64,000 nucleotides of DNA from Bacillus sp. DTU_2020_1000418_1_SI_GHA_SEK_038 (GTDB lineage: Bacteria; Bacillota; Bacilli; Bacillales; Cytobacillaceae): the NCBI RefSeq assembly GCF_032341175.1, contig NZ_CP135435.1, positions 310,001 through 374,000 of the forward strand, in the 5' to 3' direction. Position numbers and translations under genes: made by a program. The notes below the pieces were generated by a model. The model made no database searches and had not been told where the DNA came from. It saw nothing but the letters and a program-made list of their open reading frames with translations. This document shows, piece after piece, positions 1-47,938 of the stretch (within the stretch, counting starts at the first letter, position 1; each line of letters starts with the position of its first letter).

Positions 1-483
1 TGTTTGGATTGAAAGCTGTCTCCGCAAATAAGCTAAATCGCTTGAAGCATGCTGGTCAACCTGCCCATGACGGATGCAACGGTTAATTTCCTCCTCAAGC
101 TCCCGCACCTCACCAATCGATTCAGCATATAAACTTACATTCGGAGCTGCATAATACTTATCCCTCATGAATTGTTTTAGCTTCGAACAATGCTGCAGGA
201 ACGATAGAACATACGTAAATTGATTAGCACGAATATAGATCCCTTTTCGTGCCTGTGTTAAATAAAGCTCCATTTCATCCAGCGTGTGAATAGGGACACT
301 GCTGCTAATTTTGATAATTTCCTCTGCTTCAGCAATCTCCTTTAAAGATAACTCCATTCGCCTTTTATCTGGTAATGGGCGTAATGCTTGAAGGGTGTTC
401 TTCCCACGATTCGTTTTCGCAAAATTTGCGATTTCGTTTAGAATTTCTTGATACCCCAATACATCAATGGTTTGCCGATTCAT
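1..483 (-). CDS. MutS2-like protein, N-terminal part (runs off window)
   Basis: The first 161 codons of a minus-strand gene; the rest lies beyond the window edge. It begins MNRQTIDVLGYQEILNEIA, typical of the MutS2 N-terminus, and has a MutS2-like stretch near residues 135-160 (LEEEINRCI, HASSDLAYLRRQL). MutS2 proteins act in recombination control and, in Bacillus subtilis, in recognising collided ribosomes; whether this is the main MutS2 or a shorter paralogue cannot be seen because the ATPase and Smr regions are outside. The ATG follows an AGGAGG site about 8 nt upstream. It sits behind a 380-nt leader with a short upstream ORF and two terminators, so expression is probably controlled by attenuation. 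Confidence 0.72.
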   Translation of the reverse strand, partial: MNRQTIDVLGYQEILNEIANFAKTNRGKNTLQALRPLPDKRRMELSLKEIAEAEEIIKISSSVPIHTLDEMELYLTQARKGIYIRANQFTYVLSFLQHCSKLKQFMRDKYYAAPNVSLYAESIGEVRELEEEINRCIRHGQVDQHASSDLAYLRRQLSIQT

Positions 484-531
484 TTTGAATCCTCCTATTA
501 TGATCTTTTATTTGAACCATTTAAACTGCAT

Positions 532-566
532 AAAAAAACCGCCATGAACAAAATCGCTCATGACGG
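532..566 (-). terminator. Leader terminator 2, before the MutS2-like gene
   Basis: On the minus strand a 9-bp stem with one G-T pair (plus-strand arms 539-547 and 558-566) is followed by seven T. It lies only about 50 nt before the MutS2-like start codon and would stop transcription before the gene, so it looks like a regulatory attenuator. Confidence 0.7.
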
Positions 567-615
567 TAAGAAGAAATGGAAACATGCAATGGCAAACTTA
601 AATTGCGCGCAGGAC

Positions 616-648
616 AATAGGGAGGGAAATACCCTCGTTTTCCCTATT
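616..648 (-). promoter_or_regulatory. Additional hairpin in the MutS2-like leader
   Basis: Plus-strand arms AATAGGG and CCCTATT pair, with an inner stem (GAGGG and CCCTC) in the loop. It lies between the two leader terminators. No T-run follows, so it is more likely a switching or processing structure than a terminator. Function is inferred only. Confidence 0.4.
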
Positions 649-657
649 TTTGCACAC

Positions 658-686
658 AAAAAAGCTATGACAAAACATGCCATAGC
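658..686 (-). terminator. Leader terminator 1 (attenuator) of the MutS2-like gene
   Basis: Minus-strand stem GCTATG/CATAGC (plus 664-669 and 681-686), extended by two pairs after one mismatch and followed by six T. A second GCTATG copy on the plus strand at 707-712 gives upstream RNA that can pair with the 5' arm and would prevent the terminator, the arrangement of a terminator/antiterminator switch. Confidence 0.7.
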
Positions 687-717
687 GGGTTCACCAAATC
701 TTCTATGCTATGATGCG

Positions 718-821
718 TGTTCTTAACATCCCTCGAAAAAGCACATACGAAATAAACCAGTATTTTGACCGGTTTTTTGCATTTTTCAAGGCCGTATGAA
801 AATAACGGTTAGTTAAGAACA
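718..821 (-). promoter_or_regulatory. Long inverted repeat linking the uORF to the attenuator
   Basis: TGTTCTTAAC at 718-727 and GTTAAGAACA at 812-821 are perfect 10-bp inverted copies. The 812-821 arm lies inside the upstream ORF and the 718-727 arm lies next to the antiterminator segment. A ribosome stalled on the uORF would therefore disrupt this stem and change downstream folding. Between the arms are two further small hairpins. The pairing is visible; the mechanism is inferred. Confidence 0.55.
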
Positions 822-832
822 TTCACACTCAT
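809..832 (-). CDS. Leader peptide uORF (MSVNVLN)
   Basis: A 7-codon ORF, ATG to TAA, reading MSVNVLN. It has a strong ribosome binding site (CAAAGGAG, plus 841-848) 8 nt upstream of its ATG and lies about 30 nt downstream of the leader promoter. Half of its coding sequence forms one arm of a perfect 10-bp inverted repeat. Short leader peptides in this position are known from ribosome-stalling attenuators of antibiotic resistance genes (erm, ABC-F, bmrCD). No match to a named leader peptide is recognised, so the regulatory role is inferred from layout. Confidence 0.55.
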   Translation of the reverse strand: MSVNVLN

Positions 833-871
833 AAAACAAACTCCTTTGAGTTTACATTTTTATACAAATCA

Positions 872-901
872 AGTATAGCTTAGATGTGGTGGAGAGGTCA
901 A
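872..901 (-). promoter_or_regulatory. Sigma-A-type promoter of the MutS2-like leader
   Basis: Minus-strand -35 TTGACC (896-901) and -10 TATACT (872-877) are separated by 18 nt. It would start transcription near 865, just before the leader-peptide binding site, giving a leader of about 380 nt. Confidence 0.65.
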
Positions 902-25481: not shown

Positions 25482-27039
<1,558 letters not shown>

Positions 27040-27246
27040 AAGATTTGAAGTACTTGATACTTCAATAAAAGACGTTACTTGTTCGTTCAGTTTTGAGGGA
27101 ATTATCTCTCAAAACACTATGTAAATTAGTGTTTTTTGTTCCTTGAAAACTAGATAATGATTATGAAGAAGCAATAACCGAGTAATCGCCATTTTAGTTA
27201 TTCTCTCTATTATATATAGAGTTTAAAACCAATCACAATTCAGAAG

Positions 27247-27376
27247 AGTTGTGAGGAGGATGAGAAGCAAGCAGATCAAGGAAGCGACAGAACGAGCACC
27301 GGAGCGTACGTAGTTGGTACGCGAGGAGCACAGTGACGGAGCTGACGCAGAGATGCGCCGCTTATCATTCACCGAA
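27247..27376 (+). repeat. Structured GC-rich element in the 16S-23S spacer
   Basis: The spacer carries no tRNA. Instead, the last 130 nt before the 23S gene differ sharply in composition from the AT-rich remainder. They include a perfect 6-bp hairpin (GCGTAC at 27304-27309 with GTACGC at 27317-27322) and an imperfect outer pairing of GATGAGAAGC with GCTTATCATT. It looks like a separately acquired repeated element or a processing stem; I cannot name it. Confidence 0.4.
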
Positions 27377-27379
27377 CAA

Positions 27380-30312
<2,933 letters not shown>

Positions 30313-30346
30313 ACATTTAGTATGATTACTCGAATAACTTCTTCAG

Positions 30347-30378
<32 letters not shown>

Positions 30379-30386
30379 AAAATAGG

Positions 30387-30503
<117 letters not shown>

Positions 30504-30529
30504 TAGCCCCAAGAGGGGCTATTATTTTT
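30504..30529 (+). terminator. Hairpin after 5S rRNA
   Basis: TAGCCCC/GGGGCTA stem with AAGA loop, then ATTATTTTT. The T-run is broken, so read-through into the tRNA cluster is likely; it could be a weak terminator or a processing signal. Confidence 0.5.
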
Positions 30530-30558
30530 GATGAATGCATGATCAATTTAAATAAATT

Positions 30559-30633
30559 GGCCCGTTGGTCAAGCGGTTAAGACACCGCCCTTTCACGGCG
30601 GTAACACGGGTTCGAATCCCGTACGGGTCACCA
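30559..30633 (+). tRNA. tRNA-Glu (TTC)
   Basis: Complete cloverleaf; anticodon stem CCGCC/GGCGG with loop CTTTCAC. CCA is encoded. First of 17 tRNA genes after the rRNA operon. Confidence 0.95.
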
Positions 30634-30695
30634 TTTTACAGCATAGTAGAAGTGATATATGTTTAACTAATATGCACTTGCACTTTTTGCGCTGA

Positions 30696-30768
30696 GGAGG
30701 ATTAGCTCAGCTGGGAGAGCACCTGCCTTACAAGCAGGGGGTCGGCGGTTCGATCCCGTCATCCTCCA
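30696..30768 (+). tRNA. tRNA-Val (TAC)
   Basis: Complete cloverleaf; anticodon loop CTTACAA. After discriminator A the DNA reads TCA, so CCA is not encoded and must be added enzymatically. Confidence 0.93.
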
Positions 30769-30872
30769 TCATTTACCGGTGTAGACCTGAACAACTGACT
30801 ACAATAAATTGGTTAGATGTTAACTTCTATCCGGTATTTTTTATAAAGTACTTACCTCACCATTTTTGATGT

Positions 30873-30947
30873 GCGGAAGTAGTTCAGTGGTAGAACACCA
30901 CCTTGCCAAGGTGGGGGTCGCGGGTTCGAATCCCGTCTTCCGCTCCA
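30873..30947 (+). tRNA. tRNA-Gly (GCC)
   Basis: Complete cloverleaf; anticodon loop TTGCCAA in stem CCACC/GGTGG; CCA encoded. Confidence 0.95.
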
Positions 30948-31007
30948 AAAATATTTTTTGCAGTATAGGAATTAATTCTAATTGTGTTCCTTTATACCTT
31001 TATGTAT

Positions 31008-31083
31008 GGGGCCTTAGCTCAGCTGGGAGAGCGCCTGCCTTGCACGCAGGAGGTCAGCGGTTCGATCCCGCTAGGCTCCACCA
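31008..31083 (+). tRNA. tRNA-Ala (TGC)
   Basis: Complete cloverleaf; anticodon loop TTGCACG-type with TGC; acceptor GGGGCCT/AGGCTCC; CCA encoded. Confidence 0.95.
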
Positions 31084-31117
31084 TTATTATATCAAACTAA
31101 ATGTCTTTTCTTAATTT

Positions 31118-31194
31118 GGCGGTGTAGCTCAGCTGGCTAGAGCGTACGGTTCATACCCGTAAGGTCGGGGGTTCGATCCCCTCCGCCGCTACCA
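31118..31194 (+). tRNA. tRNA-Met (CAT), elongator
   Basis: Closely matches Bacillus elongator tRNA-Met; anticodon loop TTCATAC in stem TACGG/CCGTA; CCA encoded. Confidence 0.92.
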
Positions 31195-31212
31195 TATTTA
31201 TGATTTTAATGT

Positions 31213-31305
31213 GGAGGAATACCCAAGTCCGGCTGAAGGGATCGGTCTTGAAAACCGACAGGCGGGTCAAACCGCGCAGGGGTTCGAATCCCCTTTCCTC
31301 CTCCA
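31213..31305 (+). tRNA. tRNA-Ser (TGA)
   Basis: Class II tRNA with long variable arm; anticodon loop CTTGAAA. The acceptor GGAGGAA/TTCCTCC is followed by TCCA, so the discriminator base is T, not the G normal for bacterial tRNA-Ser. Confidence 0.9.
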
Positions 31306-31341
31306 TATTATGCTTAGTGAAAATTATATAAATACCATTAT

Positions 31342-31355
31342 CGCGGGGTGGAGCA
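31342..31355 (+). pseudogene. Truncated tRNA-fMet 5' end (14 nt)
   Basis: Repeats the first 14 bases of the intact tRNA-fMet at 31484. With 5 upstream bases it forms an exact 19-nt direct repeat (31337-31355 and 31479-31497) on either side of a 123-nt insert. It cannot form a tRNA. Confidence 0.8.
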
Positions 31356-31478
31356 ACGAGCGTTACTCCTTGAATAAACTGCGAGTTGTACCGATCGAGC
31401 TGCTGCTTGATTTAGCATTCTGAGATTGGGACAGTCCTTATGCTATATATGAGCATAGTAAAAAATCATATTAATATT
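31356..31478 (+). repeat. Insert between fMet direct repeats (family A)
   Basis: A 123-nt segment starting ACGAGCG and containing CGAGTTG about 36 nt in. The insert before tRNA-Gly (32518-32636) starts with the same ACGAGCG and has the same CGAGTTG at a similar distance. A small hairpin, ATGCTATATATGAGCAT, lies near its 3' end. No ORF or known RNA is recognised. Confidence 0.5.
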
Positions 31479-31483
31479 ATTAT

Positions 31484-31557
<74 letters not shown>

Positions 31558-31560
31558 TCT

Positions 31561-31637
31561 GGTCCGGTAGTTCAGTTGGTTAGAATGCCTGCCTGTCACG
31601 CAGGAGGTCGCGGGTTCGAGTCCCGTCCGGACCGCCA
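31561..31637 (+). tRNA. tRNA-Asp (GTC)
   Basis: Complete cloverleaf; anticodon loop CTGTCAC; CCA encoded. Only 3 nt separate it from tRNA-fMet. Confidence 0.95.
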
Positions 31638-31648
31638 TATTTATATTA

Positions 31649-31672
31649 GGCTCAGTAGCTCAGTCGGTAGAG
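31649..31672 (+). pseudogene. Truncated tRNA-Phe 5' end (24 nt)
   Basis: Repeats the acceptor 5' strand and D-arm of the intact tRNA-Phe at 31803. The exact direct repeat is 28 nt (31645-31672 and 31799-31826) and brackets a 126-nt insert. Confidence 0.82.
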
Positions 31673-31798
31673 GATTTTAAAAGATTGCAGCTGCGAAGCA
31701 TTTCTTCACCGAATGGCAAGCTATTAAAATCTGCGACAAAGACCGTAGGGCTTTGAAGCACATTCCCAAAGCCACACAAACTTTAGGAAGTTACATTA
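31673..31798 (+). repeat. Insert between Phe direct repeats (family B)
   Basis: A 126-nt insert. GATTTTAA (31673-31680) pairs with TTAAAATC (31724-31731). Then comes a 29-nt block at 31732-31760 (starting TGCGACAAAGACCGTAGG) that recurs with one mismatch at 32343-32371. The block itself folds (CAAAG with CTTTG, flanked by GC pairs and a GA/AA internal loop). Confidence 0.6.
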
Positions 31799-31802
31799 AT
31801 TA

Positions 31803-31878
31803 GGCTCAGTAGCTCAGTCGGTAGAGCAAAGGACTGAAAATCCTTGTGTCGGCGGTTCGATTCCGTCCTGAGCCACCA
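31803..31878 (+). tRNA. tRNA-Phe (GAA)
   Basis: Complete cloverleaf; anticodon loop CTGAAAA; CCA encoded. Confidence 0.95.
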
Positions 31879-31909
31879 TAAAATTTTCAAAATCCCTATT
31901 TTTCCATAT

Positions 31910-31994
31910 GGTGGGGTAGCGAAGTGGCTAAACGCGGCGGACTGTAAATCCGCTCCCTTTGGGTTCGGCGGTTCGAATCCGTCCCCCACCACCA
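31910..31994 (+). tRNA. tRNA-Tyr (GTA)
   Basis: Class II tRNA, 85 nt, long variable arm; anticodon loop CTGTAAA; CCA encoded. Confidence 0.95.
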
Positions 31995-31999
31995 TTTAT

Positions 32000-32073
32000 A
32001 GGGGTATAGTTTAATGGTAAAACGAAGGTCTCCAAAACCTTTGATGTGGGTTCGATTCCTACTACCCCTGCCA
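32000..32073 (+). tRNA. tRNA-Trp (CCA)
   Basis: Complete cloverleaf; anticodon loop CTCCAAA; acceptor AGGGGTA/TACCCCT; discriminator G and CCA encoded. Confidence 0.95.
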
Positions 32074-32095
32074 AATATAAAAATATGTGAATTAT

Positions 32096-32172
32096 GGCGG
32101 TTGTGGCGAAGTGGTTAACGCATCGGATTGTGGTTCCGACATTCGTGGGTTCGATTCCCATCAGCCGCCCCA
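32096..32172 (+). tRNA. tRNA-His (GTG)
   Basis: Complete cloverleaf with the extra 5' G typical of tRNA-His pairing with C73; anticodon loop TTGTGGT; CCA encoded. Confidence 0.94.
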
Positions 32173-32211
32173 TATTATTTTACAGAGAAGCAATTCTTGA
32201 GGTTACTTCAG

Positions 32212-32286
32212 TGGGCTATAGCCAAGCGGTAAGGCATCGCACTTTGACTGCGACATGCGTTGGTTCGAATCCAGCTAGCCCAGCCA
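32212..32286 (+). tRNA. tRNA-Gln (TTG)
   Basis: Complete cloverleaf; anticodon loop CTTTGAC; CCA encoded. A family B insert starts at its last base. Confidence 0.95.
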
Positions 32287-32400
32287 GTTTTTTTAAAAAC
32301 AGCCCCGAAGCCTTACATCGATGAATGGTTTTTAAAAAAACTTGCGACAAAGACCGTAGGACTTTGAAGCAAATTTTGACCACAATCAAAATTTAAGAAA
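32286..32400 (+). repeat. Family B element between tRNA-Gln and tRNA-Cys
   Basis: A perfect 15-bp inverted repeat (32286-32300 with 32328-32342) encloses a loop that aligns with the loop of the element at 31673 (shared CGAAGC and GAATGG). The 29-nt block at 32343-32371 is identical to that element except for one base. Unlike the others, no tRNA fragment duplication flanks it. Confidence 0.6.
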
Positions 32401-32401
32401 T

Positions 32402-32475
<74 letters not shown>

Positions 32476-32486
32476 AATTTATAAAT

Positions 32487-32517
32487 GCGGGTGTAGTTTA
32501 GTGGTAAAACCACAGCC
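32487..32517 (+). pseudogene. Truncated tRNA-Gly (TCC) 5' half (31 nt)
   Basis: Repeats the first 31 bases of the intact tRNA-Gly at 32641, reaching into the anticodon stem. The exact direct repeat is 35 nt (32483-32517 and 32637-32671). Confidence 0.85.
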
Positions 32518-32636
32518 ACGAGCGAAACATCCATGTATAATCTTCGAGTTGCCTCGACACATTCACATCCTTGAATTTGCTAGAAGAGGAAGAGGCATGA
32601 ATGAGCGTAAATTAAATTTAATTTTGTATCAATCAA
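32518..32636 (+). repeat. Insert between Gly direct repeats (family A)
   Basis: A 119-nt insert starting ACGAGCG with CGAGTTG downstream, as in the insert before tRNA-fMet (31356-31478). Other similarity between the two is patchy. No ORF or recognised RNA. Confidence 0.5.
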
Positions 32637-32640
32637 AAAT

Positions 32641-32714
32641 GCGGGTGTAGTTTAGTGGTAAAACCACAGCCTTCCAAGCTGTTGATGAGGGTTCGATTCC
32701 CTTCACCCGCTCCA
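32641..32714 (+). tRNA. tRNA-Gly (TCC)
   Basis: Complete cloverleaf; anticodon loop CTTCCAA; discriminator T and CCA encoded. Confidence 0.95.
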
Positions 32715-32726
32715 TATAATTTTAAT

Positions 32727-32800
<74 letters not shown>

Positions 32801-32812
32801 TATATTTACTAT

Positions 32813-32887
32813 TCCGCAGTAGCTCAGTGGTAGAGCATTCGGCTGTTAACCGAACGGTCGTAGGTTCGAATCCTACCTGCGGAGCCA
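32813..32887 (+). tRNA. tRNA-Asn (GTT)
   Basis: Complete cloverleaf; anticodon loop CTGTTAA; discriminator G and CCA encoded. Last tRNA of the cluster. Confidence 0.95.
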
Positions 32888-47384: not shown

Positions 47385-47530
47385 AAAACCTCTTCAAATA
47401 AGAAGAGGTCAATAGACAAACATCTTCTTATTTCTCAGCATGAAAGCTGCAAGAATTAGCACCGTGTCAAATCATTTGATCGGTTGCCGGGTTTCATAGG
47501 GCTCGTCCCTCCACCTGCTCTTAATAAGAA
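47385..47530 (-). promoter_or_regulatory. SAM-I riboswitch (S-box) of the mtnWXBD operon
   Basis: On the minus strand the core reads AAGAGCAGGTGGAGGGAC, then a purine-rich J1/2 and the GAAACCCGGCAACC element, GACACGGTGCTAATTC and GCTGAGAAATAAGAAG. The expression platform is the hairpin at 47385-47409 (GAAGAGGT/ACCTCTTC) with a T-run. High SAM would form the terminator and shut the salvage operon off. Confidence 0.9.
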
Positions 47531-47734: not shown

Positions 47735-47938
47735 CTCTTATCATGAGCAGGCAGAGGGATTTGGCCCGATGAAGCCCAGCAACCGACCGTAATACCGTTG
47801 TGAAACGGGGCGCTATTAGCGCCGGGATTTTCCCGCAAGGCACGGTGCTAATTCCAACGGAAAGGAAACTTTCTGAGAGATGAGAGGCAGAGAATTTGTA
47901 TTCGTAAGCCTCTTTCGTGATGAGAAAGAGGCTTTTTA
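47735..47938 (+). promoter_or_regulatory. SAM-I riboswitch (S-box) of the mtnKA-transporter operon
   Basis: The core TTATCATGAGCAGGCAGAGG, then GGCCCGATGAAGCCCAGCAA, a long extra stem (GGGGCGCTATTAGCGCC), CACGGTGCTAATTCCA and a GAGAGATGAGAGG block are all SAM-I landmarks. The terminator is AAGCCTCTTTC/GAAAGAGGCTT with five T at 47907-47938. It is shared in type with the divergent mtnW leader. Confidence 0.92.

Follow-up and report, generated by a model that had tools for sequence, protein, structure and literature searches.

Organization of the leader

The window analyzed here is a stretch of 64,000 nt from Bacillus sp. DTU_2020_1000418_1_SI_GHA_SEK_038 (contig NZ_CP135435.1, positions 310,001 to 374,000). 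It begins with the 5' part of a MutS2-like gene, which is preceded by a leader containing a short upstream open reading frame (uORF). All leader elements and the gene are located on the minus strand of the window and are listed below.

901-872, minus strand: promoter-like site with -35 TTGACC, an 18-nt spacer and -10 TATACT (consensus scan)
841..847, minus strand: Shine-Dalgarno (SD) sequence of the uORF, AAAGGAG; an AG-rich SD is kept in the leader alignment
832-809, minus strand: uORF, ATGAGTGTGAATGTTCTTAACTAA, encoding MSVNVLN in seven codons, stop TAA
821-812, minus strand: segment 1, TGTTCTTAAC, inside the uORF, putative 5' half of the anti-antiterminator by its pairing with segment 2
808-792, minus strand: short hairpin CCGT...ACGG (fold), immediately following the uORF stop
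748..775, minus strand: middle hairpin (775-754), then TTTATTT, which resembles the NusG pause motif TTNTTT
727-718, minus strand: segment 2, GTTAAGAACA, the complement of segment 1
712-707, minus strand: candidate antiterminator element CATAGC, which can pair with GCTATG in T1
658..686, minus strand: terminator T1 (686-664 plus U-run; terminator scan)
532..567, minus strand: terminator T2 (567-538 plus U-run; terminator scan), about 50 nt before the gene ATG
1..483, minus strand: 5' part of the Smr-less MutS2-like gene, with ATG at 483 preceded by its SD

Segments 1 and 2 (TGTTCTTAAC / GTTAAGAACA) displayed perfect 10-bp complementarity at a distance of 84 nt. The 392-nt leader folded at -128.6 kcal/mol (z = -8.4), which was equalled by none of 100 shuffles. 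No Rfam family was detected near the leader at the gathering score, and four sub-threshold matches to unrelated families (E 0.79-3.4) were taken as chance. The post-stop hairpin appeared by eye in relatives as CCGT/ACGG, TCCA/TGGA or ACGT/ACGT; its columns misaligned between leader types and were excluded from the formal count.

A first-pass annotation of this DNA had described a strong promoter, a 7-codon ORF with an excellent binding site, a perfect pairing between this ORF and a downstream segment, an antiterminator/terminator pair and a second terminator about 50 nt before the gene. These elements are all present as described, the 10-bp pairing included. Taken alone, the TTGACC-18-TATACT site is weak evidence of a promoter: the 1,100 nt scanned contained eight promoter-like sites, and 4.2 would be expected from shuffles. 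Similar sites precede the uORF in close relatives (by eye).

The gene product

The full gene (G000:C1:308543-310483) encodes a protein of 646 aa, which scored 595.8 bits against TIGR01069 (curated cut-off 400). Across 66 sequences, the Walker A region G330-T337 and D410 E411 showed no or almost no variation, and the ATPase motifs are intact. The Smr domain was found neither in the window protein nor in any of the 66 scanned relatives; the canonical MutS2 encoded elsewhere in the same genome, which served as the positive control, gave Smr at 90.4 bits. The assignment of the gene as MutS2-like therefore stands as to the family, but the protein is a Smr-less paralogue and not MutS2 itself. Short MutS2 proteins formed a clade separate from full-length MutS2; the full-length MutS2 of the searched relatives matched at 34-41% identity. 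The short paralogue has the same clamp/lever/ATPase core as the B. subtilis-type MutS2 (TIGR01069). Unlike the latter, it has no Smr, a shorter linker and its own C-terminal ELYPxxYD...RK tail. Pfam MSSS (KOW/SH3) did not match the window protein. The structure model contained a five-strand domain at 562-604, and hhalign gave KOW/SH3 (MSSS) probabilities of 12.5% and 47%. The closest experimental match of the model was the ribosome-bound MutS2, in a comparison with good coverage of residues 1-512 and very little of the C-terminal domain.

According to the excerpted text of one report, MutS2 splits collided ribosomes through its ATPase, and a Walker B mutant was as sensitive to erythromycin as the deletion, KOW and Smr mutants being very modestly so (PMC10897456). 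The short paralogue retains the part mattering most for erythromycin tolerance and may therefore be read as a stall-induced splitter. By analogy, this Smr-less MutS2 ATPase most likely splits stalled ribosomes as MutS2 of B. subtilis does, but is made on demand.

The canonical mutS2 of the same genome was also considered as a gene under such a leader and was excluded, since the preceding frame ends about 55 nt upstream. MutS2-like copies broken into two frames were observed at G046:C5:244596-247053 (L088) and in G041:C3; the copy in G046 keeps its leader.

Conservation of the leader in clade I

The clade I pattern GTTCTTAACTAA-N65..95-GTTAAGAAC was searched in 299 genomes of the order and was found in 82 of them in its exact form (reversed control 0). 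Clade I proteins, defined by at least 43% identity after exclusion of full-length MutS2 and clade II, were present in 95. The pattern and the protein occurred together in 81 genomes, the pattern only in one, the protein only in 14 and neither in 203. The sole pattern-only genome was G046, whose MutS2-like gene is broken into two frames. Variant leaders with wobble changes or other spacing were carried by 13 of the 14 protein-only genomes; no leader was seen in the remaining one (L142).

The uORF pattern, with a start seven codons before the end, fitted 131 of the 133 clade I loci fetched. A length of seven codons is built into this pattern; scans for a start codon gave seven codons too, in all loci listed. 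The two misses were L142 and L108, the latter having a leader nonetheless. The 117 distinct leaders contained 25 peptide types, starting with ATG in 110 and GTG in seven. Codons 5-8 were GTT (111), CTT (117), AAC (116) and TAA (117), while codons 2-4 were variable; beyond this set the stop can be TAG or TGA too. Because residues 2-4 vary, the peptide sequence was rejected as the determinant, and generic slowing is preferred over peptide identity.

The exact pattern was found in none of the viral contigs. A phage origin was rejected: the opened 'phage' records with short MutS2 were unannotated, unverified contigs resembling host DNA.

Pairing, covariation and folding

For the leader alignment, six of the 117 leaders, which had no T1 by the first rule, were removed and the others clustered at 80%; from the 54 representatives L071, L081, L134 and L145 were removed by hand, and 50 were aligned. 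The 9-bp core of the segment 1/2 pairing was paired in 99.8% of cells, and seven of its nine pairs never vary. The main T1 helix was paired in 94.3%, and five of its seven pairs were changed on both sides somewhere. The tested structure contained 58 double-change cells, 53 of them in T1; shuffling gave 26.8, and none of 500 shuffles reached 58. T1 shows compensatory covariation. The antiterminator helix was paired in 83% of cells versus 11-42% when slid. Conservation and covariation in relatives had been proposed as a check on the original idea, and both were found: the uORF and the stems are conserved across Bacilli, and T1 covaries.

Transcripts of the 50 leaders ending before the 3' arm of T1 were folded with the uORF free or masked. 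The median antiterminator probability was 0.00 when free and 0.55 when masked, with an increase in 28 leaders and a decrease in one; a control mask moved none. Of the 117 leaders, 76 had TTNTTT at -34..-18 relative to segment 2, against a mean of 4.7 and a maximum of 11 in 200 base shuffles; this may represent a NusG-type pause motif recurring at one place. A strict terminator scan of 116 leaders detected two terminators in 59, one in 55 and none in two, and none of 180 base shuffles had two. T2 was identified in 101 of the 116.

BpsA-like genes as a second target family

In a class-wide survey of 398 Bacilli genomes, the exact pattern was detected at 59 places in 49 genomes (reversed control none). 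Forty-one of these places are within 600 nt upstream of a short MutS2 gene, 17 are within the same distance upstream of a BpsA-like gene, and the remaining one is that of G046. Since the pattern is close to palindromic, four places matched solely on the strand opposite the gene; each of them has a leader in gene direction with a TAG stop (L216, L240-L242). Twelve of 20 places fetched earlier preceded short MutS2 genes and eight BpsA-like genes.

BpsA is a branched-chain polyamine synthase (PF01861) described from thermophiles in the available part of PMC12979288. The second target family shares BpsA_C with it (142-152 bits against a cut-off of 27 in the four proteins scanned), is somewhat longer, is found in Bacilli and represents a candidate enzyme known from sequence. 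One protein compared matched N4-bis(aminopropyl)spermidine synthase (PDB 5xnc, 2.7e-20). Among 26 BpsA-like genes, two of which are partial matches, 17 displayed the exact pattern and two a variant leader (L221, L222), three were located directly behind a leader-bearing short MutS2 gene on the same strand with 8-85 nt between the matches, and four had no leader (L220, L223-L225). The adjoining pairs behind one leader are those of G355:C18, G570:C4 and G447:C48 (L226, L227, L213), the BpsA-like match of G447 being partial.

The same survey, with L204 as query, found 68 short MutS2 genes, 64 of them with a leader (41 exact, 23 variant) and four without (L234, L237, L238, L254). The presence of short MutS2 genes and that of BpsA-like genes were associated: 17 genomes had the two together (p 5e-9, with no correction for kinship). 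The genome of the window contained no BpsA-like gene at E 1e-30.

A second leader copy (L096, G214:C3:474300-477600; L199) was observed about 5.9 kb from the first. It has a TTG-start KVVVLN uORF, segment 2 and T2, and precedes a gene that is GNAT acetyltransferase-like by eye and not MutS2-like.

Clade II and more distant records

Each of the 40 loci of clade II that were read (14 + 26) had a seven-codon uORF beginning with M/V-S, with peptides including MSVVGVN, MSIAGVN, MSGVGIN, MSGVVSK, VSAVGSK and MSAVGSK. A scan allowing five to eight codons found 37 of them, with one candidate each; those of L150, L168 and L169 were found on searching further upstream. The paired letters were unlike those of clade I. 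The matching test required S or T as second residue and 6-7 codons, and used the candidate nearest the gene. Matches between uORF and segment 2 measured 5-10 bp and exceeded all their shuffles in five of the 40 loci, and most recurred at one ACCTAC/AGATAC place.

In 18 of the 40 loci, segment 2 was perfectly complementary over 10-15 nt to a stretch just before the gene SD, always via its AGATACC element; this complementarity beat all 60 shuffles in 14 of the 18, the others being L150, L156, L165 and L175. The segment 2/pre-SD matches of the other 22 loci measured 5-8 nt, inside the shuffled range. By eye, the pre-SD stretch TCTTCA of this clade II subgroup is also able to pair with TGAGGA in the SD, which suggests that attenuation there acts on translation. 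Segment 2, once freed, seems to bind an anti-SD stretch in part of clade II.

In Paenibacillus, L179 again encoded MSVNVLN, its 9-bp match exceeding the shuffled maximum of 7; L180 encoded MTTGVLN with a match of 10 (shuffled maximum 8). A Clostridia record had the uORF MSVIVLL, and Enterococcus and Listeria contigs had the six-codon VSVVGI and VSVAGI.

Proposed mechanism and alternatives

The leader is probably a ribosome-mediated, stall-responsive attenuator, its product an inducible ribosome splitter, with a BpsA-family gene in that place elsewhere. The anatomy of the leader, its conservation, its linkage to the genes and the relationships of the proteins can be read from the sequences; from these we infer translation of the uORF, stalling on it, antitermination in the cell, an inducer and ribosome splitting. 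When the uORF is translated at normal speed, segment 1 would pair with segment 2, which follows after about 84 nt; this pairing would hold the adjacent antiterminator element, and T1, backed by T2, would end transcription. A pause of RNA polymerase at TTNTTT just before segment 2 may buy the ribosome time. A ribosome slowed or stalled anywhere on the uORF would leave segment 2 free, and the freed CATAGC could then pair with the 5' arm of T1, so that transcription would continue. In some members of clade II, segment 2 may, when free, instead bind the anti-SD stretch beside the gene and act on translation. In other Bacilli families, the same switch would drive, or share a gene pair with, a BpsA-family aminopropyltransferase.

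Several observations weigh against this mechanism. The antiterminator helix showed no covariation above shuffles, possibly because one strand is shared with T1. On masking of the uORF, the window's own leader rose modestly, from 0.00 to 0.36, and 21 of the 50 leaders showed no shift above 0.1. The complete T1 was favoured at equilibrium even with the uORF masked (median 0.97), and antitermination would therefore have to be kinetic. The strict scan identified T1 in 72 of 116 leaders only, and the BpsA-type leaders gave weak or mixed antiterminator evidence. The matches of the Clostridia, Enterococcus and Listeria records (7, 7 and 4 bp) were within shuffled maxima of 7. No antiterminator that would let readthrough pass T2 was recognised; two candidates by eye, AGAAGA/TCTTCT and the post-stop hairpin with the T2 arm, did not hold across all relatives.

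The leader could respond to stalling while the protein acts on DNA, in anti-recombination or repair, and not on ribosomes. This is unlikely, since the best experimental structure match is the ribosome-bound MutS2, Smr, the reported nuclease domain, is absent, a stall-sensing leader suits a translation factor, and three genomes have the gene adjoining a polyamine-enzyme-like gene. Sensing of a metabolite, a polyamine or precursor, by the leader peptide in place of general stalling has a smaller chance still. Leader peptides sensing ornithine or polyamines are known, and 17 BpsA-like genes have the exact leader, two a variant and three lie behind a leader-bearing short MutS2. However, the variation of residues 2-4 and the different clade II peptides (MSAVGSK, MSGVVSK, MSVVGVN) are unsuited to one ligand, and a BpsA-like gene is present in 17 of the 68 short-MutS2 genomes, most being without one. 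Attenuation by amino-acid starvation through the valine, leucine or asparagine codons would agree with their near invariance in clade I, but is highly improbable: these codons belong to the paired segment, where conservation is that of the nucleotides, clade II substitutes G, S, K or I, no run of a single codon is present, and the target genes are not biosynthetic for these amino acids. Passive terminators and a uORF that takes no part in regulation would agree with T2 being found more often than T1 (101 vs 72 of 116), but this reading is scarcely credible: uORF length and downstream complement are kept in two clades with different letters, and uORF masking specifically raised the antiterminator.

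The stall-responsive attenuator might extend beyond single genes. We tentatively propose, as a possibility that falls somewhat short of probable, an undescribed, dispersed stalled-ribosome regulon of Bacilli, in which a portable seven-codon sensor would jointly induce a dedicated Smr-less MutS2 splitter and, in several families, a BpsA-family enzyme. If so, the BpsA-family enzyme would change polyamines or modify the ribosome, and the splitting and re-stabilising of ribosomes would be co-induced under antibiotic or translation stress. Many other Bacilli have a testable splitting-factor candidate in the short MutS2 family, the leader shared between the two gene families offers a way into why the BpsA-like enzyme is kept in Bacilli, and the leader could be used as a translation-stress reporter.

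Other features of the window

Three near-identical CATGGTACATGG(T/C)AAA copies, perhaps an operator, are located at 2136-2240 just upstream of a GntR-type regulator-like gene (by eye). An rRNA operon and, behind it, a long tRNA cluster are located at 25483-32884 (plus strand), and two divergent S-adenosylmethionine (SAM) riboswitches about 200 nt apart at 47425-47530 (minus strand) and 47735-47886 (plus strand).

Comparison with known systems

A literature search, which covered few subscription papers, found no description of such a leader on a MutS2-type gene. If our reading is right, this would be, to our knowledge, the second stall-controlled duplicated ribosome splitter after HflXr and the first on a MutS2 relative. 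The first-pass annotation had recognized the plan of antibiotic-induced attenuators. This plan agrees with the published vmlR and hflXr leaders, but the leader is not peculiar to mutS2-type genes and is found before BpsA-like genes too.

The vmlR leader of Bacillus subtilis, as presented in the excerpted parts of PMC9226507, has the order of parts proposed for the present leader: a uORF in the anti-antiterminator, a pause hairpin with a TTNTTT-type NusG pause and an antiterminator/terminator. Its SD-sequestering element is opened by the same switch, as may be the case in part of clade II. It differs in its three-codon uORF (MIN), its unrelated sequence and its ABC-F resistance factor target (PMC9226507), whereas the leader described here adds a second terminator and has a MutS2 paralogue or a BpsA-like enzyme as target. 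In rli80-hflXr of Listeria monocytogenes, a uORF attenuator likewise precedes an inducible second copy of a splitting factor, the other copy being elsewhere; the uORF is of 14 aa (RLR), the product is an HflX GTPase and not a MutS2 ATPase, and the RNA sequence is another one (PMC6310831, in its available portions). This precedent indicates that a second ribosome-splitter copy can come under uORF control, and the short MutS2 may be read likewise. B. subtilis likely has splitting factors besides MutS2, according to an extract of PMC11633108. The leaders of cplR, lsaA and vmlR2 also contain short stall-sensing uORFs, and that of cplR combines transcriptional and translational attenuation; these leaders precede other genes and have uORFs of 3-4 codons, as far as the partial text of PMC10201436 describes them.
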